Below are positions 134 through 63,402 of a DNA stretch of 64,000 nt, in pieces. Source of the DNA: Paraflavisolibacter caeni (lineage in GTDB: Bacteria > Bacteroidota > Bacteroidia > Chitinophagales > Chitinophagaceae); assembly GCF_025628885.1 (NCBI RefSeq), contig NZ_JAOTIF010000019.1, positions 1 through 64,000 on the forward strand, read 5' to 3'. A model generated the notes under the pieces. That model was given only the letters and a program-made list of their open reading frames with translations, had not been told where the DNA came from and made no database searches. The position numbers were made by a program, and so were the translations under genes. The stretch's first letter is position 1; each line of letters starts with the position of its first letter.

Positions 134-255
134 GAATGACGAATGCATCGAATTACGATTAGGACAAAGGGAATAGAAAAGATGATAGATGATGGTTGAT
201 AGTTGGTAGAGGGGATTTAGGGATTTCGGAATTTAGGGATTTTGAGATTTGGGGA
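134..255. repeat. intergenic repeat cluster (GAATGACGAATG and GATGATAGATGATGG types)
   Basis: GAATGACGAATG lies at 134-145 and GATGATAGATGATGGTTGATAG at 181-202, followed by GGATTTAGGGATTT copies. Both short motifs recur in many gaps of this window, so this is one member of a dispersed family rather than local noise. Confidence 0.7.
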
Positions 256-480
256 CGCTGAGGTAATTAAATACCAGATTGATTGAATTGTTTTATAGGC
301 TTAGGTACGGTTTAATGTGGTGTAGGTTTGGAGTAAGTGCGGAGTAAGTAGGGAGCAGGTAGAGCGTGCGAGAAGTTTAGAAAATGCAATGGTGATTGGC
401 GGCGATGTTCTAAATTTTCACTTACCAGTTATTGGAAGAATCGGCGAAATATAACAGGGTTGTTTAAACATTTTGGGTTT

Positions 481-924
481 ATGAGGATTAGAGAAGCTGA
501 GATTTATGATATCAAACAGATACAGATTGTAAGAAATTCTGTATCAGAAAATGCTTTATCAGATCCAAAGCTGGTGAGTGATGAAGACTGTGAAGAATTT
601 ATTACGATTCGAGGAAAGGGTTGGGTTTGTGAAGTTGACCGGCAAATTGTAGGTTTTGCCATTGCTGATTTGAAGGGCAATAATATCTGGGCTTTATTTT
701 TAAGGCCAGAGTATGAAAAGAAAGGTATAGGCCGACTACTACATGACACTATGCTTGAGTGGTATTTTAGCCAAACAAAAACAAAGGTTTGGTTAGGAAC
801 AGCACCCAATACAAGAGCAGAAACTTTTTACAGGAAAAATGGGTGGACAGAAGTTGGGACACATGGAAAGTGTGAAATAAAGTTTGAAATGACTTATAAT
901 GATTGGATAAACAAAAAGGGATAG
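481..924 (+). CDS. GNAT family N-acetyltransferase
   Basis: A 147-residue protein with a complete GNAT fold pattern: an N-terminal strand and helix (RIREAEIYDIKQIQ), the central strand (IVGFAIAD, about 55-63), and the acetyl-CoA loop in PEYEKKGIGRLL (about 77-88), which fits the R/K-x-x-G-I-G signature. The C-terminal part (FYRKNGWTEVG) is the usual last GNAT motif. ATG at 481 is chosen because the upstream extension begins with TTG and adds no fold element. The substrate cannot be told; such proteins usually acetylate a small amine or a protein N-terminus. It stands alone between repeat-rich spacers. Confidence 0.88.
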   Translation: MRIREAEIYDIKQIQIVRNSVSENALSDPKLVSDEDCEEFITIRGKGWVCEVDRQIVGFAIADLKGNNIWALFLRPEYEKKGIGRLLHDTMLEWYFSQTKTKVWLGTAPNTRAETFYRKNGWTEVGTHGKCEIKFEMTYNDWINKKG

Positions 925-1109
925 TAGTTATATTGTCATTCAATAGGCGCAAAGCTGCCATCATGCTTTATCAAAAGTTGAAGAGAATAACTAACTTTCA
1001 TCTATAAACTGAAAATAAGCTTAAGGAAGTAAATAAGGGTACGTGGTCATATGCTGCCCTGCCTTTCCCAACCTCATGAAACGTTGTTTGTTATTTAACT
1101 ACTACTACC

Positions 1110-1769
1110 ATGAATAACATCGACATCAATACAACTGTTCGGAAACTATACAGTCGCATTTTTAATTGGTATCAAGAAAACGGGAGTGCTGCATTGGAGA
1201 AGGTTATTCAATCAGTCCAGTCCTGGAAAGATGGCAATGAAATTATAGCTGAATACAAATATGCGTTAGAAGAAATGCCTCGACCAGAAAATGCTACTCT
1301 TGAGGAAATATACCTGGTTGCTGATAAAGTTATAGTTGGGATTTTGGAAAGAAATTATTCTGAAAATGTTGGTGATGACCTTGTATTAGGAAACGTAGCA
1401 AGAATTATCACAGAGTTATATAAGGAGATAAAGAAGCAGGAGACGGCTGAACAATTGAAAGACAGCTTTTACACTGTTATGGATTATGATATTCAGGATG
1501 ATTTTGAATATTTTGAAAAGGCAGAAGAAGTTTACAAAAGCGTTTTGCTTGACAACGATAAAAATATTGGAGGACGGGTTGCCTTAGCTGATACAAATTG
1601 GGAGTTGCAGAAATTAAGTAATGACAACAGCCAATTATTTTTCAGAAAACCAGTAGCATTAAACTTTGAAGAAGTTGATGAAGCAAATAATTTATATCAA
1701 TTGGCTATAGATGGAAAAATTTCAATCACTAATATAACAGTAAAGACATGGCCTGGACTACAGAAATAA
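1110..1769 (+). CDS. unknown protein, first gene of a three-gene operon
   Basis: A 219-residue, acidic, mostly helical soluble protein; no signal peptide or membrane segment. I do not recognise the family. The N-terminal half looks like paired helices (KLYSRIFNWYQENGSAALEKVIQSVQ; then EYKYALEEMPRP), and the C-terminal part is rich in Asn and Asp. Its last 22 bases overlap the start of the next gene in another frame, a sign of translational coupling. A conflict or stress-related three-protein module is possible, but nothing in the sequence proves it. Confidence 0.7.
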   Translation: MNNIDINTTVRKLYSRIFNWYQENGSAALEKVIQSVQSWKDGNEIIAEYKYALEEMPRPENATLEEIYLVADKVIVGILERNYSENVGDDLVLGNVARIITELYKEIKKQETAEQLKDSFYTVMDYDIQDDFEYFEKAEEVYKSVLLDNDKNIGGRVALADTNWELQKLSNDNSQLFFRKPVALNFEEVDEANNLYQLAIDGKISITNITVKTWPGLQK

Positions 1770-2047
1770 CAATTAAAAATACGAGTCACTCAAAAGTCAG
1801 GTGCAAGGTCAAGAAGGGACAGGTTTTTGAAAATAAGAAGGTAGGGACTGGCCTACAGAATGTAGCTGCAGCAAAGGATTATATTTTCGACCTGCAGCCC
1901 AACTCAACTCAAGTCGTTCAGATTGAAGTATTATGTATTAACCAGAAATTAAAGTCACCTGAGGGCTTATTAAACATTACAAATTATGTGGTGAATAAGG
2001 AATTTCATACACAAGAGGATTTATGGTCCGTTATGAACAAAGTATAA
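1748..2047 (+). CDS. small beta-rich unknown protein
   Basis: A 99-residue protein overlapping the previous gene by 22 bases. The pattern TEITIKNTSHSKVRCKVKKGQVFE, then a Q-rich turn, then NSTQVVQIEVLCIN alternates hydrophobic residues as in a small beta-sandwich. The core K-G-Q-x-F-E ... V-V-Q-I-E-V-L-C-I-N resembles surface or adaptor Ig-like modules, but this is a weak impression. No signal peptide is present, so it is probably cytosolic. It is translationally coupled to its neighbour and followed 11 bp later by the third gene. Confidence 0.68.
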   Translation: MAWTTEITIKNTSHSKVRCKVKKGQVFENKKVGTGLQNVAAAKDYIFDLQPNSTQVVQIEVLCINQKLKSPEGLLNITNYVVNKEFHTQEDLWSVMNKV

Positions 2048-2057
2048 ACCAACAAGC

Positions 2058-2657: not shown

Positions 2658-2825
2658 ACATCACAGATATTAGCTTGACTGCAGTTTCCATTATTGCATT
2701 GACAAGTGTATTCCCCAGTATAAATGGGTAGACTTTGTCAACGAGGTTTTGAATGGCAATAGTGGCAGCGCATGAATATGTGTACAGCGGCATCATCGCA
2801 ATGTGCCTTTAATTGGAGCAACTAC

Positions 2826-5238: not shown

Positions 5239-5280
5239 GAATGACGAATGGGGAAAAAAGATGGTAGATGATAGAGGGGA
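5239..5280. repeat. GAATGACGAATGGGG / GATGGTAGATGATAGAGGGGA repeat
   Basis: GAATGACGAATGGGG is at 5239-5253 and GATGGTAGATGATAGAGGGGA at 5260-5280, a frequent tandem pairing of the two short motifs. It fills the divergent gap between the NIPSNAP-like gene and gldA. Confidence 0.75.
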
Positions 5281-5389
5281 GAGTGGAGGGAGTCGGAGGG
5301 GAGAAGGGATGTTTTAAGTTAGTATTATCAAGAGGGTGGTAAGGATTTCTGGAGGAATGGCTACTTTAGCAAACCTGAAATTTAATGAA

Positions 5390-7493: not shown

Positions 7494-9710
7494 ATGGATA
7501 GGGGACACCGCCATCTCGCCGCTATTCTATTTACTGATATTGTAGGCTATACCGCCATGATGCAGCATGATGAACAGCTGGCAATGGAGGCTGTAAAACG
7601 CCATAAGAAAGTATTAGAGAAAAACGTGGCCGCCAATGAAGGTCAAGTGATGGATTATTACGGAGATGGCAGTTTAAGTATTTTTCGTAGTGCTAATGAT
7701 GCGGCCAAATGTGCTTTATATGTTCAGAAAGAATTACGGATACCTCCGGAGGTGCCTTTGCGGATCGGTTTACACATTGGGGAGATCATATTTGAAGAAG
7801 GCAATCCATTTGGTACAGGTGTTAATGTTGCTTCCCGCATTCAGTCGCTGGGTATAGCCAATTCTGTTTTATTCTCCAAAGAGATCTGCGATAAAATCAA
7901 GAGCAATCCCGAATTCAAGATCGTTCCTCTTGGTGTGTTTGAGTTTAAAAATGTAGAGGAACCAATGGAAGTGTATGCCCTTTCCAATGAAGGGCTTGTG
8001 GTGCCCTCCAAGGAAGAGATGATGAAAGAAGGGAAGCTGAAGAAGGAGGTGGGCCAGGAAAAAGTAACTTCCCTGAAGAAGGTGATCCTGGTAGCTTCTA
8101 TTGCTTTGTTGGTGATTTCTTCTCTTTTTTATGTGTATGCTCGTTTTATTTATAAGCCCCCTTTTCCCAATAAGGACAATTCTTTGGCTGTTCTCTATTT
8201 TAATAATATGAGTGGCGATCCAAGGGAGGAGTATTTCAGTGATGGCATTACTGAAGAGATCATTTCAAGGCTTTCTATGATCAAAGGGCTGCGGGTGAAA
8301 AGCCGCACTTCTGTGTTGGCCTATAAAGGGAAGGCCAAGAGTGTGAAAGAGATCGCAAAAGAACTTGGTGTTAAAAATATACTGGAGGGGAGCATCAGGA
8401 AACAAGGGAACCAGTTGCGGGTTACGGCGCAATTGATCAATGCTCAAACTGATGAAAATATATGGTCGTTCAGTTATGACGAACTTCTGCAGGATATTTT
8501 CCAAGTGCAATCGGATATTGCCCACGAGATTGCATCCAAGTTCCAGATCAAGTTATCCGATGCCACATCCAAGAAGCTGGAAACGCCATCGACCACCAGC
8601 ACAGAAGCTTATGACAAGTTTTTGAAAGCGATCAGTTTATCATTTGTAGAATGGGGGTTAGGAGGACCGCAAACGAACAGGCTAAAAGCTATTGAGTTAT
8701 TAAGGGAGGCAATCAAACTTGATCCTGATTTTTCTAATGCATACTCTTTGATGAGTACCAGTTTTGCCTATTATAGTTTTGATGCTGATAATCCCAAACG
8801 CTGGCTTGACTCGGCAGAAATACTGGCGCGGAAGTCTATTACGTTGAGGCCGGACCGGGAATACGGGTACAGTGCCCTGGCTTTTGTTTTTGAAAGCAGG
8901 GGCAACCTTGATGAGGCTTTAAAATGGCTGGATAAGGTTCATGAAATTGCGCCTTATTCGGCTGCTGGCTGGGCCAGTGCTATTTACCGGAGAAAGAAAG
9001 AATATGGCAAGGCTTACGAGTGGGTGATGAATGCCATTGAATATGATCCTTCAGAACCGCAGCATTACCTGGCCAAAGGATTTATCTTTTATGATTTAGG
9101 CTTGCTGGACTCCATGAAAAATTACATTGATGTTGCCATGGGTATAAAGCCGGAGTCGATAGATATAGAAAACTCAGCCTCCAACTATTACCTGCGTACC
9201 GGCAACCTGGAGGAATACAGGCGTGTCAACCGTTATAAGATGGCCAATGATGAAAAAGAGTTTAATTACCAGATGGCCATCTTCTACCTGTTTCAAAGGG
9301 ATTTTAAGACAGCTGATTCTTTATACCAAATTTCTTCGCATCCTGATGATATGGATGCCGGCCTTGCCAAACTCAGGTTGGGGCAAACAGAGCAGGGTAA
9401 GCAGTATCTTAACAAGTCCATTGAGCGCAGGTTGCGTTTTTTGGGCTTTGATGCTGTATGGCACAACTTTGACATCTGCCGGGCTTATGCAGCGATGGGG
9501 GATATGCGCTTTGTTGAATACTGGGAAAGGGCTGTAAAAAATGGCTGGCATGATTACCTTTTTATACTGCAGGATCCCTTCTTAGACAGCGTGAGAAATA
9601 ATCCTGAGTTTATCAGGTTAAAGAGAGAAGCAGAGCAAAGGAATGAGCAGTACAAGGCAGATTTAAGAGCGGCGATAGAAGCACGGGAGGGGAGGAAAGA
9701 TGATAGATGA
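7494..9710 (+). CDS. membrane class III nucleotidyl cyclase with TolB-like and TPR domains
   Basis: A 738-residue paralogue of the protein at 2826-4745 with the same order: cyclase domain (1-170), one membrane helix (VILVASIALLVISSLFYVYA, about 197-216), TolB-like domain (about 225-355), TPR region to the end. Metal Asp15 (FTDIVGYT) and Asp58 (YYGDG), plus Asn111 and Arg115, are kept. The Lys that selects adenine is Asp54 and the partner Asp is Thr108, so the product nucleotide is uncertain. The helix puts the cyclase inside the cell and the TolB/TPR half outside the inner membrane, suggesting sensing of an envelope signal. Its last residues (RKDDR) are encoded by an intergenic-type repeat. 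Confidence 0.9.
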   Translation: MDRGHRHLAAILFTDIVGYTAMMQHDEQLAMEAVKRHKKVLEKNVAANEGQVMDYYGDGSLSIFRSANDAAKCALYVQKELRIPPEVPLRIGLHIGEIIFEEGNPFGTGVNVASRIQSLGIANSVLFSKEICDKIKSNPEFKIVPLGVFEFKNVEEPMEVYALSNEGLVVPSKEEMMKEGKLKKEVGQEKVTSLKKVILVASIALLVISSLFYVYARFIYKPPFPNKDNSLAVLYFNNMSGDPREEYFSDGITEEIISRLSMIKGLRVKSRTSVLAYKGKAKSVKEIAKELGVKNILEGSIRKQGNQLRVTAQLINAQTDENIWSFSYDELLQDIFQVQSDIAHEIASKFQIKLSDATSKKLETPSTTSTEAYDKFLKAISLSFVEWGLGGPQTNRLKAIELLREAIKLDPDFSNAYSLMSTSFAYYSFDADNPKRWLDSAEILARKSITLRPDREYGYSALAFVFESRGNLDEALKWLDKVHEIAPYSAAGWASAIYRRKKEYGKAYEWVMNAIEYDPSEPQHYLAKGFIFYDLGLLDSMKNYIDVAMGIKPESIDIENSASNYYLRTGNLEEYRRVNRYKMANDEKEFNYQMAIFYLFQRDFKTADSLYQISSHPDDMDAGLAKLRLGQTEQGKQYLNKSIERRLRFLGFDAVWHNFDICRAYAAMGDMRFVEYWERAVKNGWHDYLFILQDPFLDSVRNNPEFIRLKREAEQRNEQYKADLRAAIEAREGRKDDR

Positions 9711-9720
9711 TAGATGGTAG
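9699..9720. repeat. GATGATAGATGATAGATGG repeat at the cyclase stop
   Basis: The repeat starts inside the cyclase gene and provides its last codons and the stop TGA; a second in-frame copy follows. The same motif ends the phosphatase-like gene near 36.67 kb. Confidence 0.75.
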
Positions 9721-9764
9721 AAGGGAACTGGCTGGGTGTGAGTAGGAGTAAAAGGGGTTAATGG

Positions 9765-10694
9765 GTGAGTAGTCATCATCAAAATACAGTTGATATTGGG
9801 TTTATGGGGGATGTGATGATAGGGCGGCTGGTGAATGACAGTATCCGTCGGCATGGTTATGCTTATCCCTGGGGAAACCTGTTGCCACATCTTCATTCGA
9901 CAGACCTGAATTTCATAAACCTGGAAACTACGTTTACGACCTGCGAAGATGCTGTTTTAAAGACCTTCAATTTTAAGTCGGACCCCGATCATGTAGCAGT
10001 ATTACATGAAGCGCGTATAGATGCTGTAACTATTGCCAATAATCATATCGGAGATTTCGGGATCCAGGGTATGATGGATACCATCGAGGTGTTAGACAAA
10101 GCTGGTATTCCGCATACAGGTGCTGGCATTAATGCAGCTGAAGCATCCCGCCCGGTTTATATTTCCTGTAATGACCTTCATATTGCATTTCTTGGGTGCA
10201 CTGATAATGAACCTTCCTGGTGTGCTATGGATGATTATCCTGGTATCAATTATGTTGAGGTTGGGAATATTAATAAGATCAGAGCCCAGATTGAGTCAAT
10301 CAGGCATGATGCTGACCTGGTTATTTTATCTATTCACTGGGGGCCTAATATGCGTGAGCGGCCATCGAAAAAATTTATTGAATTCGCCCACCAGATCATA
10401 GATGCAGGAGTTGATATCATTCATGGTCATAGTGCACATATTTTTCAAGGGATTGAGCGGTACAAGGAAGGATTGATCCTTTATGATACAGGTGACTTTA
10501 TTGATGACTATATGGTTGATCCCATATTGCGTAATGATCATTCTTTTTTGTTTTTATGTACAGCTGGGGCGCACAAGGTTTATGATCTCCGCCTGATTCC
10601 TGTTGTTATTTCTGATATGCAGGTAAATGTGGCGGAAGGAGAAGACCGGGAGTGGAGTGAAGGGAGAATGAAACGAATGACGAATGACAAGTGA
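9765..10694 (+). CDS. CapA-like metallophosphatase-fold protein
   Basis: A 309-residue PGA_cap-type protein. Motifs: DIGFMGDVMIGRLV at the N-terminus, FINLETTFT, AVTIANNHIGDFG (the NNH metal motif), VILSIHWGPNM, and IIHGHSAHIFQGIE (H-G-H-x-x-H). These match the calcineurin-like fold of CapA/PgsA proteins linked to polyglutamate capsules, but no capB or capC is nearby, so capsule synthesis is not supported. GTG 9765 is the likely start since no ATG precedes the first motif. There is no signal peptide. The C-terminus (RMKRMTNDK) is encoded by a GAATGACGAATGAC repeat. Confidence 0.82.
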   Translation: MSSHHQNTVDIGFMGDVMIGRLVNDSIRRHGYAYPWGNLLPHLHSTDLNFINLETTFTTCEDAVLKTFNFKSDPDHVAVLHEARIDAVTIANNHIGDFGIQGMMDTIEVLDKAGIPHTGAGINAAEASRPVYISCNDLHIAFLGCTDNEPSWCAMDDYPGINYVEVGNINKIRAQIESIRHDADLVILSIHWGPNMRERPSKKFIEFAHQIIDAGVDIIHGHSAHIFQGIERYKEGLILYDTGDFIDDYMVDPILRNDHSFLFLCTAGAHKVYDLRLIPVVISDMQVNVAEGEDREWSEGRMKRMTNDK

Positions 10695-10710
10695 CGAATG
10701 GGAGAGGGGA
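10675..10710. repeat. GAATGACGAATGAC repeat at the capA-like stop
   Basis: GAATGACGAATGAC (10676-10689) is followed by GTGACGAATGGGAGAGGGGA. The first part encodes the last four residues (T-N-D-K) and the stop of the CapA-like protein. Confidence 0.75.
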
Positions 10711-10780: not shown

Positions 10781-10811
10781 AAAAACAGCGGTAGAGTTTA
10801 CCGCTGTTTTT
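10781..10811. terminator. intrinsic terminator hairpin, 13-bp perfect stem
   Basis: AAAAACAGCGGTA (10781-10793) pairs perfectly with TACCGCTGTTTTT (10799-10811) around the loop GAGTT. The A-tract/T-tract symmetry allows use in both directions. It would end the transcript of the CapA-like gene. Confidence 0.88.
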
Positions 10812-11301
10812 GAATGAATGAAGCATTCTGTAATTATGTTTGAAGTATTGCTGTTTAATTAATACTTCTATTGTTATAAGCCTCTCTCTATTAATTCTAA
10901 TACCCGCTATCCTGATAAAGCCTCGTTCATTAAAAGAGCCTGACTATTGGGATATGTCCTTTAGAATATATCCAATTTTCATTGGGTATTGATGTAATTA
11001 CAGAACGCCTGCAATTAATAAGTGCCGAAAAGCTGTTTTCACCTTTAAGCTCTAAATAACCGTTTCATAGTAGTGAAAACTTCTCACTGCCTTAAGCACT
11101 TTGTTTAATGATGCCCTCCTGCTTATTCACACCAACATTGTCTAAATAATCACTGCTCAGGGCTATTTTCATAAGGTTTCGAACTTTAAAGAGCTGTACA
11201 GATTTATTATGCTAAGCCAATCTAAATACTAAAATCAACTACACCATACCATAAATAAACAATTATGCCAAAAAAATGGGGAAGCTGAACCGTTCAAACT
11301 A
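10812..11301. other. gene-poor spacer
   Basis: About 490 bases with no ORF that looks protein-like on either strand. No strong hairpin, tRNA fold or repeat copy was seen apart from the repeat beginning at 11302. It is A+T-rich and could hold a promoter or a small RNA, but nothing specific can be supported. Confidence 0.5.
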
Positions 11302-11356
11302 CGAATGGTTCGAATCCGCCAGAGGCGGACAAGTTGCGATTGATGAATGGGGAGAG
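11302..11356. repeat. composite repeat with GAATCCGCCAGAGGCGGAC hairpin
   Basis: CGAATGGTTCGAATCCGCC AGA GGCGGACAAGTT... with TCCGCC (11315-11320) pairing to GGCGGA (11324-11329), then GATTGATGAATGGGGAGAGGGG. A near-identical composite lies at 56130-56184 and a diverged one at 28191-28231. Confidence 0.8.
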
Positions 11357-11360
11357 GGGC

Positions 11361-11381
11361 ATCCTGGAAGTTTGCCAGGAT
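11361..11381. terminator. possible hairpin terminator
   Basis: ATCCTGG (11361-11367) pairs with CCAGGAT (11375-11381) over a 7-base loop, just beyond the stop of the small minus-strand gene at 11390. The following T-tract is weak on either strand, so termination strength is doubtful. Confidence 0.4.
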
Positions 11382-12375: not shown

Positions 12376-12429
12376 AAGAATGAGTTATTAAGGTGAAGAT
12401 GTCAAATGTAAAGAGCGAATGGTGAATGG

Positions 12430-27072: not shown

Positions 27073-27120
27073 AAATGACGAGTAATTAGAATGACGAACG
27101 ACGGATTGAAAGAGGGGAAG
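27073..27120. repeat. AATGACGAGTAATTAGAATGACGAACGACGG repeat
   Basis: Two diverged copies of the GAATGACGAATG motif, followed by GATTGAAAGAGGGGA, fill the start of the ctaD-ctaB gap. They interrupt the otherwise tight oxidase operon. Confidence 0.7.
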
Positions 27121-28183: not shown

Positions 28184-28190
28184 GGAATGA

Positions 28191-28231
28191 AGAATGATTC
28201 GAATCAGCCAGAGGCGGAAACGTGCGAATGG
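28191..28231. repeat. diverged composite hairpin repeat
   Basis: GAATGATTCGAATCAGCCAGAGGCGGAAACGTGCGAATGG is the third copy of the composite element. One stem arm has changed (CAGCC against GGCGG), so its hairpin is weakened. Confidence 0.7.
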
Positions 28232-28272
28232 CAAATAAGATTTAATGAATCAAGAAAATATAATAGAAAGAA

Positions 28273-30294: not shown

Positions 30295-31092
30295 ATGAAT
30301 AAAAAAGCTTTTTTAGGATTATTGGTTGCGGTTGCCATACCTCTTGTCAGTTACCTGATCATGAGGTCTTTGGGCAAGGACATTGGTGTCATGCCTCGCC
30401 ATTTTATTTATGATACAGTTCATTCAGTCACCAAAAATGGAAAGCTGGAAAATGATACTGTGTGGCATAAAATTCCGGATTTCTCATTTGTCAATCAGCT
30501 GCATGATACTGTAGGCTGGAAGGATATAGGTGATAAAATTGTGGTGGCAGATTTCTTTTTTACCAGGTGTCCAACAATTTGTCCGAAGTTGACCCTAAAT
30601 ATGAAACTCCTGCAGGATCATATCCGGACATCGGAAAAGGTAGGAGACCGTTTCCCACGTTTTGTTCAATTCCTTTCTTTTTCAGTTGATCCGGAGCGGG
30701 ATGATGTACCTGCATTAAAACATTGGGCTGATCGTTTTCAAATTAATCCGGAAAACTGGTGGTTACTTACAGGTAATAAAAAAGAAATCTATGACCTTTC
30801 GATTAATCATTTTAAACTTGGATTGGTTGATGGTAAAGGGATAGATACGGGTTTCTTTCATACCGATTACATGGTATTGATCGATAAAAACAGGAACATA
30901 CGTGGGTATTATCATGGATTGGATACTACTGAAGTTCAACAACTTGCAAGAGATATTGTATTGCTTTCATTAGAAAAAGACCCTAACCGAAAAGGTGTAT
31001 TTGCCGGAAAGCTAGAAATGCTTGCTGTCATCTTTTTTATTACCATTATTGGGATTGTTTTGTTGGTTTACCTTTTAAAACGTTATAAATGA
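30295..31092 (+). CDS. sco: SCO1/SenC copper chaperone
   Basis: A 265-residue membrane-anchored thioredoxin-fold protein. The N-terminal helix (KKAFLGLLVAVAIPLVSYLIM) anchors it; the copper site is CPTIC (Cys92, Cys96) plus the His in FFHTDYMVLID. A C-terminal helix (MLAVIFFITIIGIVLLVYLL) gives a second anchor, which is less common. SCO proteins deliver copper to the CuA centre of subunit II. It overlaps the next gene by 4 bp. Confidence 0.92.
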   Translation: MNKKAFLGLLVAVAIPLVSYLIMRSLGKDIGVMPRHFIYDTVHSVTKNGKLENDTVWHKIPDFSFVNQLHDTVGWKDIGDKIVVADFFFTRCPTICPKLTLNMKLLQDHIRTSEKVGDRFPRFVQFLSFSVDPERDDVPALKHWADRFQINPENWWLLTGNKKEIYDLSINHFKLGLVDGKGIDTGFFHTDYMVLIDKNRNIRGYYHGLDTTEVQQLARDIVLLSLEKDPNRKGVFAGKLEMLAVIFFITIIGIVLLVYLLKRYK

Positions 31093-31667
31093 ATATTACT
31101 ATTACGAAGAATGATACAAAAGCAAGGATAATCATATTCATTTTCTCTATAATAGTATTTTTTGCTGTTACTGCCTTAGAGAGAGTAACCCTAAATGTCC
31201 ATTTAGGCTTTGATGAACATTTGTTTGCAAAGTTGAATGCAATTATCAACTCGATAGTAGCGGTATTACTATTAGCAGGTATTGTAACGGCAAAACAGGG
31301 GATGTATAAAAGCCATCAAAAAATTATGCTTTCAGCGATGGGATTATCGGTGCTTTTCCTGGTTAGTTACATTTGCCATCATTTATTTGCAGGTTCAACT
31401 TTATATGGAGATGTAGACAAAAATGGTATTGTAAGTGCAGCAGAAAAGCTTGAAGTTGGTAATATGCGCATGGTCTATTTTTTCATATTGAGCACCCATA
31501 TTTTGCTTGCGGGTTTATCACTGCCTCTGATCTTATTTACGGCATACAGGGCACTAATCAACGAAAATGCCGTGCATCGTAAGCTGGCTAAGATCACATG
31601 GCCCATTTGGTTTTATGTAGCGTTATCAGGGCCAGTAGTTTACTTGATGATCAGCCAATATTATTGA
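31089..31667 (+). CDS. DUF420 membrane protein with an EF-hand-like loop
   Basis: A 192-residue protein with five helices. KLNAIINSIVAVLLLAGIVTAKQGMYKSHQKIM and SYICHHLF are DUF420 hallmarks; this family (CtaM-like) helps heme-copper oxidase maturation. Residues 108-119 (DVDKNGIVSAAE) match a calcium-binding EF-hand loop, D-x-D-x-N-G-x-x-x-x-x-E, placed in an extracytosolic loop. ATGA overlap with sco implies translational coupling. Confidence 0.88.
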   Translation: MNITITKNDTKARIIIFIFSIIVFFAVTALERVTLNVHLGFDEHLFAKLNAIINSIVAVLLLAGIVTAKQGMYKSHQKIMLSAMGLSVLFLVSYICHHLFAGSTLYGDVDKNGIVSAAEKLEVGNMRMVYFFILSTHILLAGLSLPLILFTAYRALINENAVHRKLAKITWPIWFYVALSGPVVYLMISQYY

Positions 31668-31700
31668 GTGACGAATGATACGGAAGACGAATTGAGAAAG

Positions 31701-35522: not shown

Positions 35523-35580
35523 ATGACGGATTTCGGAAGGGAACGTTAGCATTAATCGTAATTATAAAAGGAGGGTGGAT

Positions 35581-36675
35581 ATGAAACTAGCGTTGGTTGC
35601 AGTGTTGCTTTTCCTTTATAGCAAGACGGTTGGTTATGCTGTTGTTACAGAAAGAAAAGAGCGGCCTAATGAGAATAAAGTCTTTGTGATCACGTTGGAT
35701 GGTTTTCGGTGGCAGGAGTTTTTCAAAGGAGCAGATGAGGTGTTGCTGAAAGAAGCGTCTGTATCGAGCAAGATGGATTTGAAAAAGACTTTCTGGGATG
35801 ATGATGTTGCTATCAGGAGGAGAAAACTGATGCCTTTTACCTGGGATGTGATTGCTCAACAGGGGCTGCTATTGGGTAACAGAGCTTATGGAAGCAAGGT
35901 AAATGTATCAAATCTTTACGCGCTCTCTTATGCAGGGTATAATGAAATGTTCACTGGTGGTACAGACTTTACCATCTTCAGCAATAGAAAGATCAGGAAT
36001 CAGAATGTTTCCTTTTTGGAGCACATTAATAAGTTGCCACAGTTCAAAGGTAAAGTCGCAGCCATTACTTCATGGGATGTATTCCCATATATTTTCAACA
36101 AGACCAGGAGCCGCCTTTACATAGATTGTAACAGTAAGCCAGATGTATCTCATATCCCTGTTTCTATGCGTCAGCTGATGGATGATCATAGCGTGAGGGA
36201 CGGAGCGGTACGTAATGACCTTTTTACATTTGCAGCTGCGAAAGAATACATTACCAAGAATCTTCCGCGTTTGCTGCATATTGGTTTGAGTGGTACTGAC
36301 GAAGCCGCCCACCAACATAAGTATGGTGATTACCTGCAGCAGGCCCACCTGGCTGATAAGATCATTGGATGGTTGTGGCAGCTTACACAGAAGCTTCCTT
36401 ATTACCGTGATCATATTACTTTCATCATAACCACTGACCATGGCCGTGGCAGTAAGAGGTCGAACTGGAACAAACATAATTTCTGGATTAAAGGATCATC
36501 CGAAACGTGGATGGCCTTAATAGGCAATGGCGTCAAACAAATGGGAGAATACAAGGGACGTATTCAATTATATCAAAAACAAGTGGCAGGAACGATTGGG
36601 TATTTTCTTAATGTGCGTTCCTTCAATAACTATACGATGCCGTTGACTTGTTTGGGGGTGATAGATGATAGATGA
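35581..36675 (+). CDS. alkaline-phosphatase-superfamily protein
   Basis: A 364-residue exported protein (signal KLALVAVLLFLYSKTVGYAVV). The first metal motif is VFVITLDGFRWQEFF. The nucleophile region reads NLYALSYAGYNEMFTGG, where family members usually have N-x-x-S/T-F/L-P-G-Y. Later metal residues are in GLSGTDEAAHQHKYGDY and ITTDHGRGS. It would hydrolyse a phosphate or sulfate ester in the periplasm; substrate unknown. An AGGAGG site six bases before ATG 35581 decides the start. The final residues (VIDDR) come from a GATAGATGATAG repeat. Confidence 0.85.
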   Translation: MKLALVAVLLFLYSKTVGYAVVTERKERPNENKVFVITLDGFRWQEFFKGADEVLLKEASVSSKMDLKKTFWDDDVAIRRRKLMPFTWDVIAQQGLLLGNRAYGSKVNVSNLYALSYAGYNEMFTGGTDFTIFSNRKIRNQNVSFLEHINKLPQFKGKVAAITSWDVFPYIFNKTRSRLYIDCNSKPDVSHIPVSMRQLMDDHSVRDGAVRNDLFTFAAAKEYITKNLPRLLHIGLSGTDEAAHQHKYGDYLQQAHLADKIIGWLWQLTQKLPYYRDHITFIITTDHGRGSKRSNWNKHNFWIKGSSETWMALIGNGVKQMGEYKGRIQLYQKQVAGTIGYFLNVRSFNNYTMPLTCLGVIDDR

Positions 36676-36685
36676 AAGATGAAAA
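36659..36685. repeat. GATAGATGATAGATGAAAGATG repeat at a stop codon
   Basis: The repeat encodes the last I-D-D-R residues and TGA stop of the phosphatase-like gene, as in the cyclase ending at 9710. Confidence 0.7.
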
Positions 36686-46584: not shown

Positions 46585-46754
46585 ATATCGGTAAAAGTAT
46601 GGTGGTGATCGGTTAACGGCAGAAAAATGAGATGAAAGGTGGTTTTTTTGAGATGAAAGGGCGGGGCAGGAGATGATAGAAGGCAGATGATTGATGATAG
46701 ATGTTAGATGACAAATGATAGAGGGAGAGTGGGAGTTGATGGGCAATTGGGGGC
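46585..46754. other. spacer with repeated GATGA motifs
   Basis: No gene is seen. The spacer contains GAGATGAAAGG twice (46629-46639, 46650-46660) and then a long GATGATAGAAGGCAGATGATTGATGATAG-type repeat (46671-46730). Confidence 0.65.
46671..46730. repeat. GATGATAGA-type repeat array
   Basis: Successive imperfect GATGATAGA, GATGATTGATGATAGATG, TTAGATGACAAATGATAGAGGGAGAG units. Longest uninterrupted run of this repeat type in the window. Confidence 0.75.
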
Positions 46755-50409: not shown

Positions 50410-50430
50410 AGGGGAATGATGAATGAATTG

Positions 50431-50468
50431 AATGACGAATGGGCCTTGGCCCATTCGTCATTTTTTTT
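50431..50468 (+). terminator. terminator built from a GAATGACGAATG repeat
   Basis: AATGACGAATGGGCC (50431-50445) pairs perfectly with GGCCCATTCGTCATT (50448-50462), a two-base loop, then a T-run to 50468. The left arm is exactly the dispersed repeat motif. Confidence 0.88.
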
Positions 50469-51352: not shown

Positions 51353-51758
51353 AAGCAGAACCTGGGGGTTTCATAGTTTATAATTGACATTGTTAATCAT
51401 TCATTTTCAACTATTTAAAGATTGAAAACCGGCAATTTCATGAAGCCAGAATATAGATTTTATGTCATCATGTTTTCAAGAAGTGCTTCAAAACATGACT
51501 AATTAAGGGTTCTGTCTTTCTACAGTGGACAAGCGCTCGTAGATTTTATCTACTCAAAGTAGATAAAGTTCAAATGTAATGGTTTCCTCTTATTTGTGTA
51601 GCTGTTTTGACAAGAATCATACCAACAAGTGGAATGACGAGTGAGGAAAAAGATGATAGATGATGGATGATAGAAGAGAGGTTGGGAAGGAGGGGCTGAG
51701 TGGAGGATTGAGGGATAGAGGGGTGAGGGCTATTGTCAATTGATTTAACTTCGCCGGC
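51353..51758. other. divergent spacer with hairpins and repeats upstream of polA
   Basis: No gene seen. It holds a 13-bp stem with one mismatch (TCATGTTTTCAAG 51468-51480 / CTTCAAAACATGA 51486-51498), a 9-bp stem (TTTATCTAC 51545-51553 / GTAGATAAA 51559-51567), and a GGAATGACGAGTGAGG plus GATGATAGATGATGGATGATAG repeat (51631-51673). A small RNA or regulatory leader is possible. Confidence 0.55.
51631..51730. repeat. GAATGACGAGTG and GATGATAGATGATGGATGATAG repeats
   Basis: Same two-motif pairing as at 134-210 and 5239-5280, followed by G-rich GAGGGGTGAGGG units, immediately upstream of polA. Confidence 0.75.
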
Positions 51759-56129: not shown

Positions 56130-56184
56130 GAATGACGAATGATTCGAATCCGCCAAAGGCGGACAAGTTTGAATGTAGAATGGG
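56130..56184. repeat. composite repeat with GAATCCGCCAAAGGCGGAC hairpin
   Basis: GAATGACGAATGATTCGAATCCGCC AAA GGCGGACAAGTTTGAATG... GAATGGGG. Nearly identical to the copy at 11302-11356. Confidence 0.82.
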
Positions 56185-58410: not shown

Positions 58411-58454
58411 GAATGACGAACCTTTTGAATGACGAATTACGGATGACGAATTTT
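58411..58454. repeat. GAATGACGAA repeat trio inside the umuDC gap
   Basis: GAATGACGAACC, GAATGACGAATTAC and GGATGACGAATTTT follow one another in the 57-bp gap between the umuD-like and umuC genes. Confidence 0.75.
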
Positions 58455-59577: not shown

Positions 59578-59601
59578 GTGAACCTATTGACCATTCACCA
59601 T

Positions 59602-60315
59602 TCACGATGCCAGTTCTGCGTATTCATAGGGTTGGGTGACTTCGGGGACGTTTGTATCGGCGCCGCGGGTGGTGATGAGTTTGGAAATGGGATGGGCTTT
59701 CATGAGTGCATTGTCGCAGGGGGCGAGGAGGGATTGGATATCCTCTTTGTTCAATGCAGGGTCGAGCCAGGTGTCCCAAAGTTCATGGGGCAGTATGACG
59801 GGCATGCGTTGCTTGGTGTTGTGAATCTTTGCCATCAGTGGATTGGCATCGGTAGTAATGATGGTAAAGGTGCGCAGGAGTTCGCCGGTTTCTTTATCGG
59901 TCCAATGGGAATAAAGTCCGGCAAAGGCAAACAGCTGCAGCCCATCCAGGTGTACGAAGTGCGGGTATTTTTTCTTCCGGTATTCCATCCATTCAAAGAA
60001 ACCATCAGCTAGTACTAAACAGCGGTTCTCCTTTACATAAGTGCGGAAGGAAGGTTTTTCAAATACCGTCTCACCTTTGGCGTTCAGCGTTTGCGCTCTC
60101 AGTTTTTGTGCATCTTCTGCCGTTTTTACCCAGTGTGGGATCAGTCCCCATTGATAAGCCTGTACCTTGCGGGGCTCCTGCATGGTGATGACGGGCATTG
60201 GCGCAAATTCAAAGCCGCTAACATGGTAAACCGGCTCGAAGGGCATTTCCCATTCGGCGCGGATCATTTTCATGATCTCTTCCTGTTTCTTGGTAAGGGA
60301 GTAGTGGTAGCACAT
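59602..60315 (-). CDS. yedK: SOS response-associated peptidase fold (SRAP/YedK) protein
   Basis: A 237-residue HMCES/YedK homologue. Cys2, which crosslinks to abasic DNA, follows the initiator Met (MCYHYSL). The other active residues are Asn in LNAKGETVF, Glu in LADGFFEWME and His in IHNTKQRMPVIL. It protects single-stranded DNA at abasic sites by a covalent bond. It is convergent with the 2H-like gene and fits the damage-response cluster. All key residues are intact. Confidence 0.94.
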   Translation of the reverse strand: MCYHYSLTKKQEEIMKMIRAEWEMPFEPVYHVSGFEFAPMPVITMQEPRKVQAYQWGLIPHWVKTAEDAQKLRAQTLNAKGETVFEKPSFRTYVKENRCLVLADGFFEWMEYRKKKYPHFVHLDGLQLFAFAGLYSHWTDKETGELLRTFTIITTDANPLMAKIHNTKQRMPVILPHELWDTWLDPALNKEDIQSLLAPCDNALMKAHPISKLITTRGADTNVPEVTQPYEYAELAS

Positions 60316-60332
60316 ACATTGTAAAGGTAAAT

Positions 60333-60373
60333 GGAATGACGAATAATTCGAGTGACGAATGAAGAATGGGAAG
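60333..60373. repeat. GGAATGACGAATAATTCGAGTGACGAATG repeat
   Basis: Two direct copies of the GAATGACGAAT motif separated by AATTCGA, the same ATTCGA spacer seen in the composite hairpin copies. It lies between the divergent SRAP and radical SAM genes. Confidence 0.75.
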
Positions 60374-60463
60374 GGTGGAAATGTAAAATGCGGGTCTTGG
60401 ATTTTTAAATTTTAAATACAGTTATTAGTGCAAAGGGAATATAAGAAAGGAAGAGGGGCGCAG

Positions 60464-61501
60464 ATGAATACGAGGAATCGTTTTGAAAGGCAGGAGCGTA
60501 CAACAGAACATGTGGAGGGGATAGATGAATGGGTAGAAGCGGGTGTGACTACGCAATTCATAGATGTTCAGGCCAGGAGCATTGTTAATAAGGTGGATAG
60601 CCCGGATGTACCCATGTTTTACAGCATGAATCCATACATGGGCTGTGAACATGGTTGTATTTATTGTTATGCGCGTAATTCTTTTGAGTATTGGGGCTAT
60701 AGTGCGGGTTTGGATTTTGAAAGCAAGATACTGGTGAAGCAGAATGCACCAGAGTTGTTGCGTAAATTCCTGATGAATCCCAAATGGAAATGTGTGCCGA
60801 TCAGCATTAGTGGTAATACGGATTGTTACCAGCCCGCGGAACAAAAGTTCCGCCTGACCAGGAAGTTGCTGGAGGTCTGCAATGAATTCAACCAGCCTGT
60901 TGGCATTATCACCAAGAACGCCGCTATACTACGCGACATAGACCTGCTTAAGGATATGGCTTCAAGGCGGTTGGTTTCTGTGTTTATTTCCCTGACGACA
61001 TTGAATGAGGAATTAAGAAGGGTAATGGAGCCAAGGACCACTACGGCCTTGCAACGTTTGCGTGTTATAGAAGAATTAAGCAAGGTGGGTGTGCAGATGG
61101 GGCTCATGCTTGGTCCTATTATTCCAGGTTTGAATGAACATGAAATGCCGGCTGTGATCAAAGCAGCGGTTGAAGCAGGGGCCACTTTCTCTGGTTATAC
61201 GTTTGTGCGATTGAATGGGGCTGTAAAGGTTTTATTTCATGACTGGCTTTACAAGAATTTCCCGGACAGGGCTGATAAGGTATGGCATATGATTGAATCG
61301 GGGCATGGAGGGAAAGTGAATGACAGTCGCTGGGGAGTACGTATGAGGGGAGAGGGAAATATAGCAAAGCTGGTGGCGGATCAATATCGTGCGTATACGA
61401 AAAAGTATGGGTTGGGGAAGGAGAAGATGGCGTTGGATTGTACGAGGTTTAACCCTCCTGTCCCTAAAGGGGAGTCATGGGAACAATCTACTTTGTTTTG
61501 A
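60464..61501 (+). CDS. PA0069-type radical SAM protein
   Basis: A 345-residue radical S-adenosylmethionine enzyme. The cluster motif is MNPYMGCEHGCIYCYARN (C-x3-C-x2-C), followed by ISGNTDCYQPAEQKFRLTRKLLEV, a family-specific block also found in spore photoproduct lyase relatives. Its reaction is not known, but the SPL link suggests nucleic acid. ATG 60464, with GAAGAGG nearby, is preferred over GTG 60428. It lies next to DNA-repair genes. Confidence 0.9.
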   Translation: MNTRNRFERQERTTEHVEGIDEWVEAGVTTQFIDVQARSIVNKVDSPDVPMFYSMNPYMGCEHGCIYCYARNSFEYWGYSAGLDFESKILVKQNAPELLRKFLMNPKWKCVPISISGNTDCYQPAEQKFRLTRKLLEVCNEFNQPVGIITKNAAILRDIDLLKDMASRRLVSVFISLTTLNEELRRVMEPRTTTALQRLRVIEELSKVGVQMGLMLGPIIPGLNEHEMPAVIKAAVEAGATFSGYTFVRLNGAVKVLFHDWLYKNFPDRADKVWHMIESGHGGKVNDSRWGVRMRGEGNIAKLVADQYRAYTKKYGLGKEKMALDCTRFNPPVPKGESWEQSTLF

Positions 61502-61554
61502 ACAGGCTTAAGATATTGAATGTTTAGTTTAGAGCTTATACCTTCGCTGGTATC

Positions 61555-62145
61555 ATGAATGTATTCATCCATCCGACGGCAGTCGTTGATGAAGGGGCTC
61601 AAATTGGAATGGGAACCCGGATCTGGCATTTTACGCACCTGATGCCGGGCTGCAGACTTGGACGTAACTGCAATGTAGGACAGAATGTTTTTATTGATAA
61701 CGGTGTAACTATTGGGGATGGGGTAAAAATACAGAACAATGTGTCGGTGTATAAGGGGGTGCTTATAGAGGATGATGTGTTTTTGGGACCTTCGGCTGTG
61801 TTTACCAATGTTATTAATCCAAGAAGCTTTATTGAAAGGAAACATGAGTTCAGGCAGACGGTGGTGCGCAGGGGAGCGACCATAGGGGCTAATGCGACGA
61901 TTGTGTGCGGAGTGGAAATTGGGGCCTATGCAATGGTTGGTGCCGGGAGTGTGGTGACGAAGAATGTGTTGCCCTTTGCGCTCGTTTATGGCTGCCCGGC
62001 AGTGCAGGAGGGCTGGGTGAGCAGGGCGGGGCATCGGTTAGAGTTTGATGAGGCAGGTGAGGCTAGTTGTCCGGATTCGGGGGAGCGGTATTTGTTAAAA
62101 GAGGGGAAAGTGAGGAGAATGACAAATCATTCGAATGATGAATGA
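61555..62145 (+). CDS. hexapeptide-repeat N-acetyltransferase (WlbB/WbpD type)
   Basis: A 196-residue left-handed beta-helix transferase. Hexapeptide coils run from about 5 to 160 ([52 protein letters not shown]). The loop [37 protein letters not shown] is the family signature of UDP-2-acetamido-3-amino-glucuronate N-acetyltransferases. It would acetylate a nucleotide sugar for O-antigen or glycan synthesis, though no other sugar genes are near. The last 10 residues ([10 protein letters not shown]) are from an intergenic-type repeat. Confidence 0.88.
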
Positions 62146-62147
62146 GA
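62117..62147. repeat. GAATGACAAATCATTCGAATGATGAATGAG repeat inside the gene end
   Basis: A diverged repeat copy that encodes the C-terminal TNHSNDE and stop of the acetyltransferase. Confidence 0.7.
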
Positions 62148-62191
62148 GGTGGAGGAAAATTATTATGAGGCCGTGGAATATCAACTTTTGA

Positions 62192-62243
62192 GGAATTGAT
62201 TCCGAAAAAGTGTATACTTTTAGGGAATTGATTCCGAAAAAGT
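62192..62243 (+). repeat. 32-bp-spaced direct repeat GGAATTGATTCCGAAAAAGT
   Basis: The 20-mer occurs at 62192-62211 and 62224-62243, exactly 32 bp apart. Each copy begins with the dyad GGAATTGATTCC and is followed by a TATA-like stretch. The second copy ends 8 bp before the ATPase start codon. Confidence 0.8.
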
Positions 62244-62251
62244 ATATTTCG

Positions 62252-63388
62252 ATGATCCCAAGAACTATTGGAAAAAAGATACAGGAAAGGTTATTTAAGG
62301 GGAAAGTTATTATCATAATGGGTGCCCGGCAAACGGGGAAGACCACGTTACTTAGATCGCTTATGCTCCCTTCAGAGGATACACTCTGGCTTAACGGAGA
62401 TGAGCCGGATGTGCAGGCTGTTTTTGAAAATGCAAGTTCTGATCGTCTAAAGGCCTTTTTAGGAAATCATAGAGTGGTAGTTATTGATGAAGCGCAAAGA
62501 ATCAGCAATATTGGTGTGGGTATCAAGTTGATAAAGGATCATTATCCCAATGTTCAAGTTGTAGCAACCGGCTCTTCGTCATTTGAACTGGCTAACAAAG
62601 TAAACGAACCACTTACCGGCAGAAAATGGGAGTTCCAGTTGCATCCTTTATCGTTCCAGGAAATGGTGCAATACCACGGTCTCATTAAAGAAAAAAGGTT
62701 ATTGGAGCACCGGCTGGTATATGGTTATTATCCAGAGGTTGTAACATCTGAAGGCGATGAAAAGGCAATATTAAAAGAGCTATCTGACAGCTATCTTTAT
62801 AAAGATATTCTATTGTGGGAAGGTATTAAAAAGCCAGAAAAGCTGGTGAAGCTACTACAAGCGTTAGCCTTCCAGGTTGGCAACCAGGTATCCAATAATG
62901 AACTCTCACGCTTGACAGGATTGGACGGCAAAACGGTGGAATCTTATATCTATTTGCTGGAACAAACTTATGTAGTGTTCCGTTTATCGTCGTTTAGCCG
63001 CAACCTTCGCAACGAATTGAAAGCTTCAAAGAAAATCTACTTTTATGACAATGGGATACGCAATGCCATCATTGCCAATTTTCAGCCAGTTGGTCTTAGG
63101 GCTGATACGGGAGCTTTATGGGAGAACTTTTTAATGGCTGAGCGTTTGAAGCGTAATCATTATCATGATCATTTTGTGAACAGCTATTTCTGGCGTACCA
63201 AGGAGCAGCAAGAGATAGATTATATCGAAGAAGAAAACGGGCAATTGCTGGCAGCGGAGTTTAAATGGAGGGCTGAGACGAAAGCTAAGATTCCTGCAAC
63301 CTTTCTTAAGCATTACCCTGAAAGCCAGCAGAGCATCGTTACACCGGAAAATTTCGAGTCTTTTGTAATGGGCGAATGGGAGGAATGA
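62252..63388 (+). CDS. AAA ATPase with DUF4143 domain
   Basis: A 378-residue protein. N-terminal Walker A is GARQTGKTT (24-32), Walker B-like VVVIDEAQRI, and the sensor region VVATGSSSFELANKVNEPLTGRKWEF. The C-terminal DUF4143 domain (about 200-370) has YFYDNGIRNAIIANF and EQQEIDYIEEENGQLLAAEFKW, the latter like a PD-(D/E)xK nuclease-fold relic. Such proteins are frequent, often multi-copy, and of unknown function. ATG 62252 is chosen by homology and sits just after the direct repeat. Confidence 0.9.
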   Translation: MIPRTIGKKIQERLFKGKVIIIMGARQTGKTTLLRSLMLPSEDTLWLNGDEPDVQAVFENASSDRLKAFLGNHRVVVIDEAQRISNIGVGIKLIKDHYPNVQVVATGSSSFELANKVNEPLTGRKWEFQLHPLSFQEMVQYHGLIKEKRLLEHRLVYGYYPEVVTSEGDEKAILKELSDSYLYKDILLWEGIKKPEKLVKLLQALAFQVGNQVSNNELSRLTGLDGKTVESYIYLLEQTYVVFRLSSFSRNLRNELKASKKIYFYDNGIRNAIIANFQPVGLRADTGALWENFLMAERLKRNHYHDHFVNSYFWRTKEQQEIDYIEEENGQLLAAEFKWRAETKAKIPATFLKHYPESQQSIVTPENFESFVMGEWEE

Positions 63389-63402
63389 TTCGAATGACGA
63401 AT
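63383..63402. repeat. GAATGATTCGAATGACGAAT repeat
   Basis: AATGATTCGAATGACGAATT overlaps the ATPase stop and ends at the edge of the rtcB stop codon, the smallest of the intergenic gaps that contain the element. Confidence 0.75.

Follow-up and report, generated by a model that had tools for sequence, protein, structure and literature searches.

The short motifs that recur in the gaps between genes of the 64-kb window (the whole stretch of DNA analyzed) belong to a composite repeat family, consisting of 7-bp tandem units (heptads), 11-bp arrays, and a core of about 155 bp, which was found in one genome only, a Chitinophagaceae-like one, among those searched. Arrays of the heptads GAATGAC and GATGATA begin on same-strand stop codons, mostly TGA, far above chance, and the 11-bp arrays resemble landing sites of an RNA-guided IS110-type element, judging from a predicted fold. 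The joint reading that we favor on balance is that the heptads are intergenic satellites, mainly tolerated in the 3'-UTR, and that the 11-bp arrays are IS110-type landing sites.

Heptad and 11-bp arrays in the window and the genome

The motif or a variant of it was present on the plus strand at all 13 positions listed in the first-pass annotation, and further copies lay at about 11338, 12417, 28185, 31666, 35521, 36657, and 50414-50441. Recurrence was thereby upheld, but not the fixed form that had been described, as GAATGACGAATG and GATGATAGATGATAG are parts of 7-bp tandem arrays whose real units are (GAATGAC)n and (GATGATA)n. Within the 64-kb window, GAATGACGAATG with ≤2 mismatches gave 32 matches against 5.9 expected (maximum of 15 in 100 shuffles), and GATGATAGATGATAGATG with ≤3 mismatches gave 15 against 0.09 expected, in every case on the plus strand. 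The GAGGGGA tail ascribed to the motifs was found in exact form within 120 bp downstream of 5 of the 13 listed copies and, with one mismatch, of 7 of the 13.

Composite blocks on the plus strand occupy positions 134-255 (GAATGACGAATG, then GATGATA heptads, then GAGGGGA and GGGATTTA repeats), 5239-5300 (GAATGACGAATG, GATGGTAGATGATAG, and GAGGGGA), 11300-11358 (a TCCGCC-AGA-GGCGGA palindrome with degenerate GATTGATGAATG), and 56130-56182 (GAATGACGAATG, a TCCGCC-AAA-GGCGGA palindrome, and GAATGTAGAATG). The same strand carries GAATGACGAGTG followed by a GATGATA array at 51632-51676, a degenerate GAATGAC array at 58411-58452, and a GAATGAC array at 60334-60368, as well as degenerate GAATGGTGAATG at 12417-12428, flanked by two minus-strand genes, and a GATGATA array of 7.4 copies (TRF) at 46671-46724, also between two minus-strand genes.

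The plus-strand rule held for the listed copies but not genome-wide, where GAATGACGAATG occurs 37 times on the plus and 38 times on the minus strand; inside the window, a minus-strand array of GGTGAAT heptads at 59584-59610 overlaps the end of the minus-strand gene 59602-60315. Motif strand and 30-kb GC skew had the same sign in 37 of 45 single-strand clusters, a count from which 3 mixed-strand clusters and clusters without a gene on either side were left out. This agreement fits a strand-oriented chromosome signal (KOPS- or Chi-like) that follows the local G-rich strand, but such a signal is very unlikely, given the 37/38 strand split, a skew that reverses over tens of kb and is confounded with gene strand, and a sequence near absent from relatives, unlike a conserved segregation signal.

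The motif was neither confined to the window nor lacking in excess copies, with 75 exact copies of GAATGACGAATG in the 7.01-Mb genome against 1 for the reversed pattern and 0 to 3 copies in each of 57 relatives. Outside genes called by custom codon-score scripts lay 96 of 113 motif matches, and 1 of 63 clusters was in mid-gene. Period-7 matching positions numbered 225 in gaps, with 7 left after shuffling of the gaps and 0.3 in length-scaled coding DNA, and array counts in real and shuffled sequence were 30 versus 2.2 for period 7 and 33 versus 1.2 for period 11, with sharp peaks at these two periods and none at 5, 6, 10, or 12. Period-7 and period-11 arrays are located in gaps, with hardly any in genes. 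The initial impression that the repeats are too regular for chance was borne out by the shuffles and the reversed-pattern control, which fell far below the observed counts, and their description as dispersed, mostly in gaps, and tied to gene ends agrees with the period-7 excess in gaps and with array starts on same-strand stops. Low-complexity purine-rich gap sequence without special origin, in keeping with the G/A richness of the arrays and their location in gaps, is hardly credible in view of the reversed-pattern control, the sharpness of the two periods, and the coupling to stop codons.

Period 7 recurs in several relatives with different units, the real and shuffled counts of other-unit arrays being 17 and 0.2 in G015, 27 and 1.4 in G012, and 24 and 0.3 in G025; such arrays were few or absent in G003 and G034, and only few in G008. 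The CGAA 11-mer pattern was detected in 2 of 294 genomes, namely, its own (94 matches) and G217 (1 match).

Coupling of the heptads to stop codons

In an 863-kb sample, 28 of 62 heptad clusters started no more than 10 bp from a same-strand stop codon, against a null of about 3.1%, and so did 13 of 50 held-out exact sites (null, 3.1%), compared to 2 of 62 clusters and 0 of 50 sites at antisense stops. One mid-gene cluster of 63 and two mid-gene sites of 52 were excluded from these counts; the held-out set also leaves out sites closer than 40 to 52 bp to a locus edge and counts identical contexts once. Of the 62 clusters, 28 had their 5' edge at a stop and 1 had its 3' edge near a start codon, and the stop codon was TGA in 22 of the 28 coupled genes versus 145 of 660 genes overall. 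Away from any sense stop were 34 of the 62 clusters. The coupling is specific to the GAATGAC and GATGATA units because that of period-7 arrays of any unit was weak or absent, with 7 of 33 at 3' gene ends and 6 of 33 at 5' ends in the own genome, 1 of 17 versus 0 in G015, 7 of 25 versus 7 in G012, and 9 of 24 versus 3 in G025.

Several plus-strand copies in the window illustrate this arrangement. The gene 7494-9710 ends inside the GATGATA array at 9692-9724, the gene 35575-36675 inside the GATGATA array at 36657-36685, and a gene with its end at 10694 inside the GAATGAC array at 10673-10700. The start of GAGTGACGAATG (31666-31677) overlaps the TGA stop of the gene 31089-31667, the first TGA of GAATGATTCGAATGACGAATT (63383-63403) is the stop of the gene 62210-63388, and the stop of the gene 61555-62145 falls at the end of the GAATGAC array at 62117-62144. 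GAATGAC copies at 27073-27100 lie shortly past the stop of a gene ending at 27069, with cyoE downstream, and an element of about 49 bp at 28185-28233 follows immediately 3' of the cyoE stop.

Protein length was unchanged or nearly so in the coupled pairs tested. Comparison of protein ends covered 11 of the 28 coupled genes (44 to 91% identity) and gave an identical last residue in 8 pairs and a difference of 2 to 6 residues in 3, with orthology uncertain in three pairs, of which two (55% and 44%) are membrane proteins with many similar matches and the third has 55% identity. Other heptads were found within about 10 bp past the matching stop in 3 of the 11 relative pairs and about 45 bp on in one more. 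Among 80 cyoE loci from Chitinophagaceae and other Bacteroidota records, a period-7 array started within 60 bp past the stop in 6; the corresponding figure was 2 with period 8, and neither period 6 nor period 11 gave any. The motif at 28185 was absent, at ≤1 mismatch, from all 14 congener cyoE loci, two of which have one 2-mismatch match somewhere in the locus.

The excess of sense over antisense stops (28 versus 2 in the sample, 13 versus 0 held out), the heptads at matching stops in relatives, and the period-7 arrays past cyoE argue for a functional 3'-UTR signal, acting as all-frame backup stops, as an aid to ribosome release, or as a site where binding of a protein or an RNase to the mRNA controls its stability; translational roles have been proposed by MacGregor for the TAACTGA heptads of Beggiatoaceae, in the portion of the paper used here (PMC4679880). 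We regard such a signal as possible though doubtful, since 34 of 62 clusters are away from a sense stop, GAATGACGAATG is nearly missing in relatives, period-7 arrays are few in some of them, and the genes flanking the arrays have no evident common function, by listing and without statistics. A role at transcript ends in general, suggested in the first-pass annotation, was not borne out, as terminator-like matches were at chance level over 60 of the 64 kb; the total of promoter-like matches was also at chance, and at gathering thresholds the window had no match in Rfam. In the 60 kb covered, the only copy that itself folds into a strong hairpin with T run is the plus-strand GAATGAT/GAATGAC array at 50414-50463 between convergent genes, where 15 pairs precede the T run (50430-50463). 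Hairpins also lie just 3' of the copies at 10675 (10781-10811) and 11338 (11361-11381).

According to the favored reading, polymerase slippage would create and alter the heptads, and recombination or template switching may carry copies from one site to another. Arrays would be retained where they lie in sense on a stop codon, we propose because the unit contains TGA: with a 7-bp step every reading frame would meet a stop, so that an array could replace the native stop with the protein unchanged, and the heptads would therefore be mainly tolerated 3'-UTR satellites. A few arrays may have been recruited as terminators.

Tolerance alone offers no obvious reason for an array to start on the stop instead of elsewhere in the gap. 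Also at odds with the favored explanation are the 34 of 62 clusters off sense stops and the any-unit arrays without 3' preference (7 versus 6 of 33).

The 155-bp core and the IS110-type element

The core of about 155 bp is present in 40 copies of 88 to 97% identity in its own genome. A similarity search of 117 family genomes, including its own, gave near-full copies in its own genome only, and the relatives G102 and G125 matched the core only over its 11-bp part; a search with the core pattern gave 0 stretches in genome contigs, a set that may not include the own genome. In the alignment of the 40 copies the edges were graded and variable, with no terminal inverted repeats by eye, and the TCCGCC-NNN-GGCGGA palindrome occurred in some composites only. 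Because 40 near-identical copies exist, some dispersal mechanism must be at work.

The near identity of these copies, the absence of the motif (≤1 mismatch) from 14 of 14 congener cyoE loci, and the short palindromes within some composites would suit a REP/BIME or MITE-type mobile repeat with a transposase acting in trans. That is quite improbable, given the graded edges without visible inverted repeats, units of which neither the heptads nor the 11-mers are palindromic, and the lack of any match to the Y1 transposase family PF01797 in the genome (5 of 14 control genomes were positive). The likeness to REP elements, as first suggested, fails on the same grounds, a REP unit being a palindrome of 20 to 40 bp, and a link to RAYT was rejected for want of a Y1_Tnp match. 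A cargo-gene reading of the small basic proteins next to certain 11-mer arrays was dropped, as the other flanking genes appeared unrelated and, by reading, mostly housekeeping.

The 40 near-identical core copies and the scarcity of period-7 arrays in G003, G034, and G008 count against the favored explanation.

An element of about 11 copies, IS110-type by its right end, sits inside the 11-bp arrays. In the window, its right end spans positions 1-75 on the plus strand with the CT core (74-75) as the boundary between element and target, and the target side, on the evidence of other copies and flanks, is the plus-strand array (ATCTCTATAAC)n at 72-107 (TRF period 11); a second plus-strand 11-bp array, GGAGTAAGTAC, lies at 330-355 (TRF). 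Eleven contig ends share window bases 1-71 exactly. The right end matches at 81% the sequence just past an ORF for an IS110-type transposase (PF02371) on contig C34 at 242.6k, and the IS110 assignment rests on this match because the interior of the 11-copy element, including transposase and donor loop, was not found in the assembly. All 11 left-end contig ends were preceded by TAAGGTCTC, and all 10 right ends read had AATCT then CTATAA, so that 11 of 11 left and 10 of 10 right flanks were consistent with a CT core at a fixed target.

Left-end bases 61-146 are predicted to fold with an internal loop whose two sides, AGGUCUA and GUUAUAG, carry matches to the two halves of the array target, arranged as target guides are in a bridge RNA. 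The candidate guides are AGGUCU (left) and UUAUAGAG (right), for the target halves AAGGTCT and CTCTATAA. The longest right-target match was 10 nt, extended 6 to 8 nt beyond the CT core, and was reached by 0 of 1,000 shuffles, in which base content only was kept. The left-target match was weak, with 6 nt inside the loop and 7 nt outside it at base 44, a length reached by 50 of 1,000 shuffles. In the divergent C34 copy, a 9-nt stretch upstream of the transposase gene equals its own left flank, a match without shuffle control, and the longest automatic right-flank match falls outside the hairpin. The linked transposase anticipated for the repeat family is thus represented by an IS110-type element tied to the 11-bp arrays, but one not shown to move the heptads. 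Through bridge-RNA guides, the 11-bp arrays may offer this element many harmless landing sites, as REP does for IS621.

A bolder alternative, in our opinion unlikely, is that each species has a heptad "word" set in sense on stops by an active process, either an RNA-binding factor acting in trans or copying machinery with recognition of gene ends, with different words at the same stops across species and with the 11-bp arrays as a co-evolved docking repeat kept with the IS110 bridge-RNA guides.

Two topics that usually stand apart, tandem repeats at stop codons and RNA-guided IS110 transposition into tandem arrays, are linked here. Turnover of heptad sequence with recurring step and position provides a natural system for the origin of heptads and their placement at stops, and the element flanks supply a testable candidate bridge RNA with known targets.

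Comparison with known systems

The STRR sequences of cyanobacteria are likewise short tandem heptads dispersed in gaps, in another lineage and with other units. The arrays described here, made of head-to-tail 7-bp units that are dispersed and intergenic, are intergenic heptameric repeats. Heptads near sense stop codons are already known in other organisms. In the parts of the source used here, they are in print for Xanthomonas (GGGAATC) and Nostoc (GGGGA(C/T)T), where the heptamers form G-quadruplexes and vary widely in length and sequence even among close relatives (PMC4692102). Those repeats share with ours the 7-bp tandem units, a mostly intergenic and dispersed location, and the preference for the sense strand near stops seen for GAATGAC and GATGATA arrays, but the unit differs, the TGA in or beside the array is usually the stop here, and 11-bp companion arrays with an IS110-type link are present here (PMC4692102, same parts).

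The statement that no such repeat was described in this group holds in part only, as TAACTGA direct repeats have been published for marine Beggiatoaceae, Cyanobacteria, and five Bacteroidetes (PMC4679880, consulted in part). These are also heptads in gaps, with a patchy distribution and a stop codon in the unit, and in some Bacteroidetes they are intermixed with other heptads; in the Guaymas Maribeggiatoa they lie mostly just 5' of starts, whereas 28 of 62 clusters here have the 5' edge at a stop. The BrickBuilt MITE of Porphyromonas gingivalis, as far as the excerpt of its description goes (PMC4596501), is another intergenic repeat of Bacteroidota with a tandem minisatellite, but has 23-bp units and leader and tail inverted repeats, and no inverted ends were seen here. 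The bridge RNA of IS110 and IS621, from the sections of PMC11208160 available, resembles the predicted arrangement in its CT core, its target-binding loop with left and right guides, and its repeated extragenic target; the target of IS621 is a REP element, and that of the IS110-type element here would be an 11-bp tandem array.

Extent and periodicity of the arrays

Both motifs of the family, GAATGACGAATG and GATGATAGATGATAGATG, consist of heptads repeated in tandem, (GAATGAC)n and (GATGATA)n. Within the window, GAATGACGAATG was matched 32 times at up to 2 mismatches against 5.9 expected, and GATGATAGATGATAGATG 15 times at up to 3 mismatches against 0.09 expected. A copy or near copy was present on the plus strand at all 13 places named in the first-pass annotation; the GAGGGGA tail described there was found exactly within 120 bp at 5 of them. 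TCCGCC-NNN-GGCGGA palindromes lie amid GAATGAC-like units at 11315 and 56149, and composites elsewhere in the genome contain comparable ones. A 32-bp unit is present in two tandem copies (62184-62247, 90% matches) where the 62210 ORF begins.

Confinement to the window was ruled out by a scan of the whole 7.01-Mb genome (89 contigs, the window being the beginning of contig C11), with 75 exact copies of GAATGACGAATG (37 plus, 38 minus) compared to a single one of the reversed control pattern. The second motif, at up to 1 mismatch, gave 36 partly overlapping matches and none in the control. The periodicity was analyzed in an 863-kb sample (C1 1-400 kb, C12 200-520 kb, and the whole of C11, window included). 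Its gaps held 225 positions repeating with period 7 (shuffled gaps 7, length-scaled coding DNA 0.3) and 387 with period 11 (8 and 0.5). Counted as arrays, there were 30 and 33, compared to 2.2 and 1.2 after shuffling. Multiples of both periods were also raised, and periods 5, 6, 8, 9, 10, 12, and 13 were close to background in the same gaps. The units in this genome include, among others, the 7-mers GAATGAC, GATGATA, GGAGTTT, GGATTTC, and GGTGAAT, and the 11-mers CTCTATAAGGT, TTTACTATAAC, TACGGCTTAGG, TATACTTAAGG, and CGAAGGATGGT. Motif strand and 30-kb GC skew were concordant in sign for 37 of 45 clusters of the sample, a relation confounded with gene strand.

The 7-mers and 11-mers are often merged in blocks of 200-500 bp in the order heptads, a core of about 155 bp, and 11-mers. 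The core is noncoding, with 40 near-full copies in the genome at 88-97% identity, and in the aligned copies its conserved part grades off into the 11-mers with no sharp edge. On reading, the genes beside the blocks look for the most part unrelated and housekeeping.

In 57 other genomes (17 congeneric), GAATGACGAATG occurs 0-3 times per genome. The near-full core was found in this genome only among the 117 family genomes searched, itself included, and the four-unit CGAA 11-mer pattern was matched 94 times in this genome and once across 293 others. Period-7 arrays of quite different units are common in some of the relatives from which 180-220 kb were sampled (G015, 17 against 0.2 shuffled; G012, 27 against 1.4; G025, 24 against 0.3), sparse in G008 (5 against 0.6) and G003 (2 against 0.3), and about at chance in G034 (2 against 1.1). 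Period-11 arrays were seen in G015 (5 against 0.5) and hardly in the other sampled relatives. Adjacent heptad arrays form inverted pairs, allowing possible long hairpins, 4 times in G012 and 7 times in G025 (L246-L255 and L276-L285), compared to none in the 863-kb sample. The earlier REP-like reading was not supported, the genome search returning no Y1 transposase. Rfam families were absent from the window at gathering thresholds.

Coupling of heptads to stop codons

Of the 63 heptad clusters in the 863-kb sample, one was mid-gene and was left out. At 28 of the remaining 62, a same-strand stop codon lies within 10 bp of, or is overlapped by, the 5' edge of the cluster, compared to 3.1% under random placement in gaps. 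Within 10 bp of the 3' edge, a same-strand start was found once and a convergent gene end twice (n = 62). A held-out set outside the sample (34 loci and L011-L026) contained 52 distinct exact sites, two of them mid-gene and left out; 13 of the 50 were at a same-strand stop, and none at a start or an antisense stop. The stop of the coupled genes was TGA in 22 of 28, compared to 145 of 660 among all called genes.

In 11 pairs with a matching protein from a relative (44-91% identity), 8 proteins ended at the same residue and 3 were off by 2-6 residues. No GAATGACGAATG follows the stops of the relatives, which were TGA in 1 of 11 compared to 8 of 11 in this genome. A different heptad lies within about 10 bp past the relative's stop in 3 pairs and about 45 bp past in a fourth, such as TGA followed by TTGGTGATTGGTGA in G012, or TAG, 9 bases, and CTATCAGCTATCAG in G008. 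At the cyoE locus, the motif at up to 1 mismatch was found in none of 14 congeners. The best 80 of more CyoE matches came from Chitinophagaceae and other Bacteroidota (e.g., a Puia MAG, 75%), and of these loci, an array of period 7 starts within 60 bp past cyoE in 6, of period 8 in 2, and of period 6 or 11 in none. Period-7 arrays of any unit at gene 3' and 5' ends numbered 7:6 in this genome, 1:0 in G015, 7:7 in G012, and 9:3 in G025. The stop-codon effect is not general to heptads; it is specific to the stop-bearing units GAATGAC and GATGATA.

A role at transcript ends, also proposed earlier, was not upheld as a general terminator function, the scans being at chance over 60 of the 64 kb, though the copy at 50414 has a 15-pair hairpin and a T run. 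Hairpins lie just 3' of the copies at 10675 and 11338. Most likely, the arrays are satellites that would be lengthened by slippage, spread by recombination, and tolerated in 3' UTRs because an array brings a stop codon of its own whatever the reading frame. Published work describes a sense-strand preference near stop codons, stop overlap included, for heptads of Xanthomonas and Nostoc (PMC4692102), and TAACTGA heptads in five Bacteroidetes, with a translational role proposed for Beggiatoaceae (PMC4679880). Among the papers listed in searches of open-licence PMC literature, none concerned heptads at stops in Chitinophagaceae, or 11-bp arrays as IS110 targets.

A probable IS110-type element in the 11-bp arrays

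Eleven contig ends carry bases 1-71 of the window unchanged, and this stretch matches, at 81%, the sequence directly after an IS110-type transposase ORF (PF02371) at C34:242.6k. At the right ends, AATCT and then CTATAA were present in all 10 read, the C3 end being left out, followed by 0-4 more 11-mer units and then other DNA. A 136-base left end is common to 11 other contig ends (99-100% identity), preceded by TAAGGTCTC at all 11 (L217 and L218 read on the reverse strand). The two flanks thus place the element within a single unit of the 11-bp array, AAGGT-CT-CTATAAGG. PF02371 was found at 5 places in the genome and at none of the 11 insertion sites, so the interior of the element is absent from the assembly. 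Two more IS110-type copies (L203, C1:316.9k; L205, C4:79.1k) have flanks that by eye are not 11-bp arrays. Other contig ends in common (C11 end with C16 end, C67 end with C23 start, and C7 end with C16 start) point to further collapsed repeats in the assembly.

The predicted fold of left-end bases 61-146 has one internal loop with the sides AGGUCUA and GUUAUAG, and the remainder of the right-target match falls in the adjoining stem. Of 1000 shuffles made for the 11-copy element, none reached the longest right-target match (10 nt), 50 reached a 7-nt left-target match, and none reached both. Evidence for the left half is weaker, since its 7-nt match lies at base 44, outside the loop, and within the loop the match is 6 nt. 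In the divergent C34 copy, by eye outside any 11-bp array, AGGGTGTCT upstream of the transposase gene is identical to its own left flank. Nearby TTTTGAG is complementary to the right flank CTCAAAA, the longest automatic right match lying elsewhere in the region.

The match between array and guide was judged, like the stop coupling, from sequence statistics. Most likely, the IS110-type element exploits the 11-bp members of the repeat family. In its predicted layout, the internal loop of the left end resembles the target-binding loop of bridge RNA (PMC11208160).
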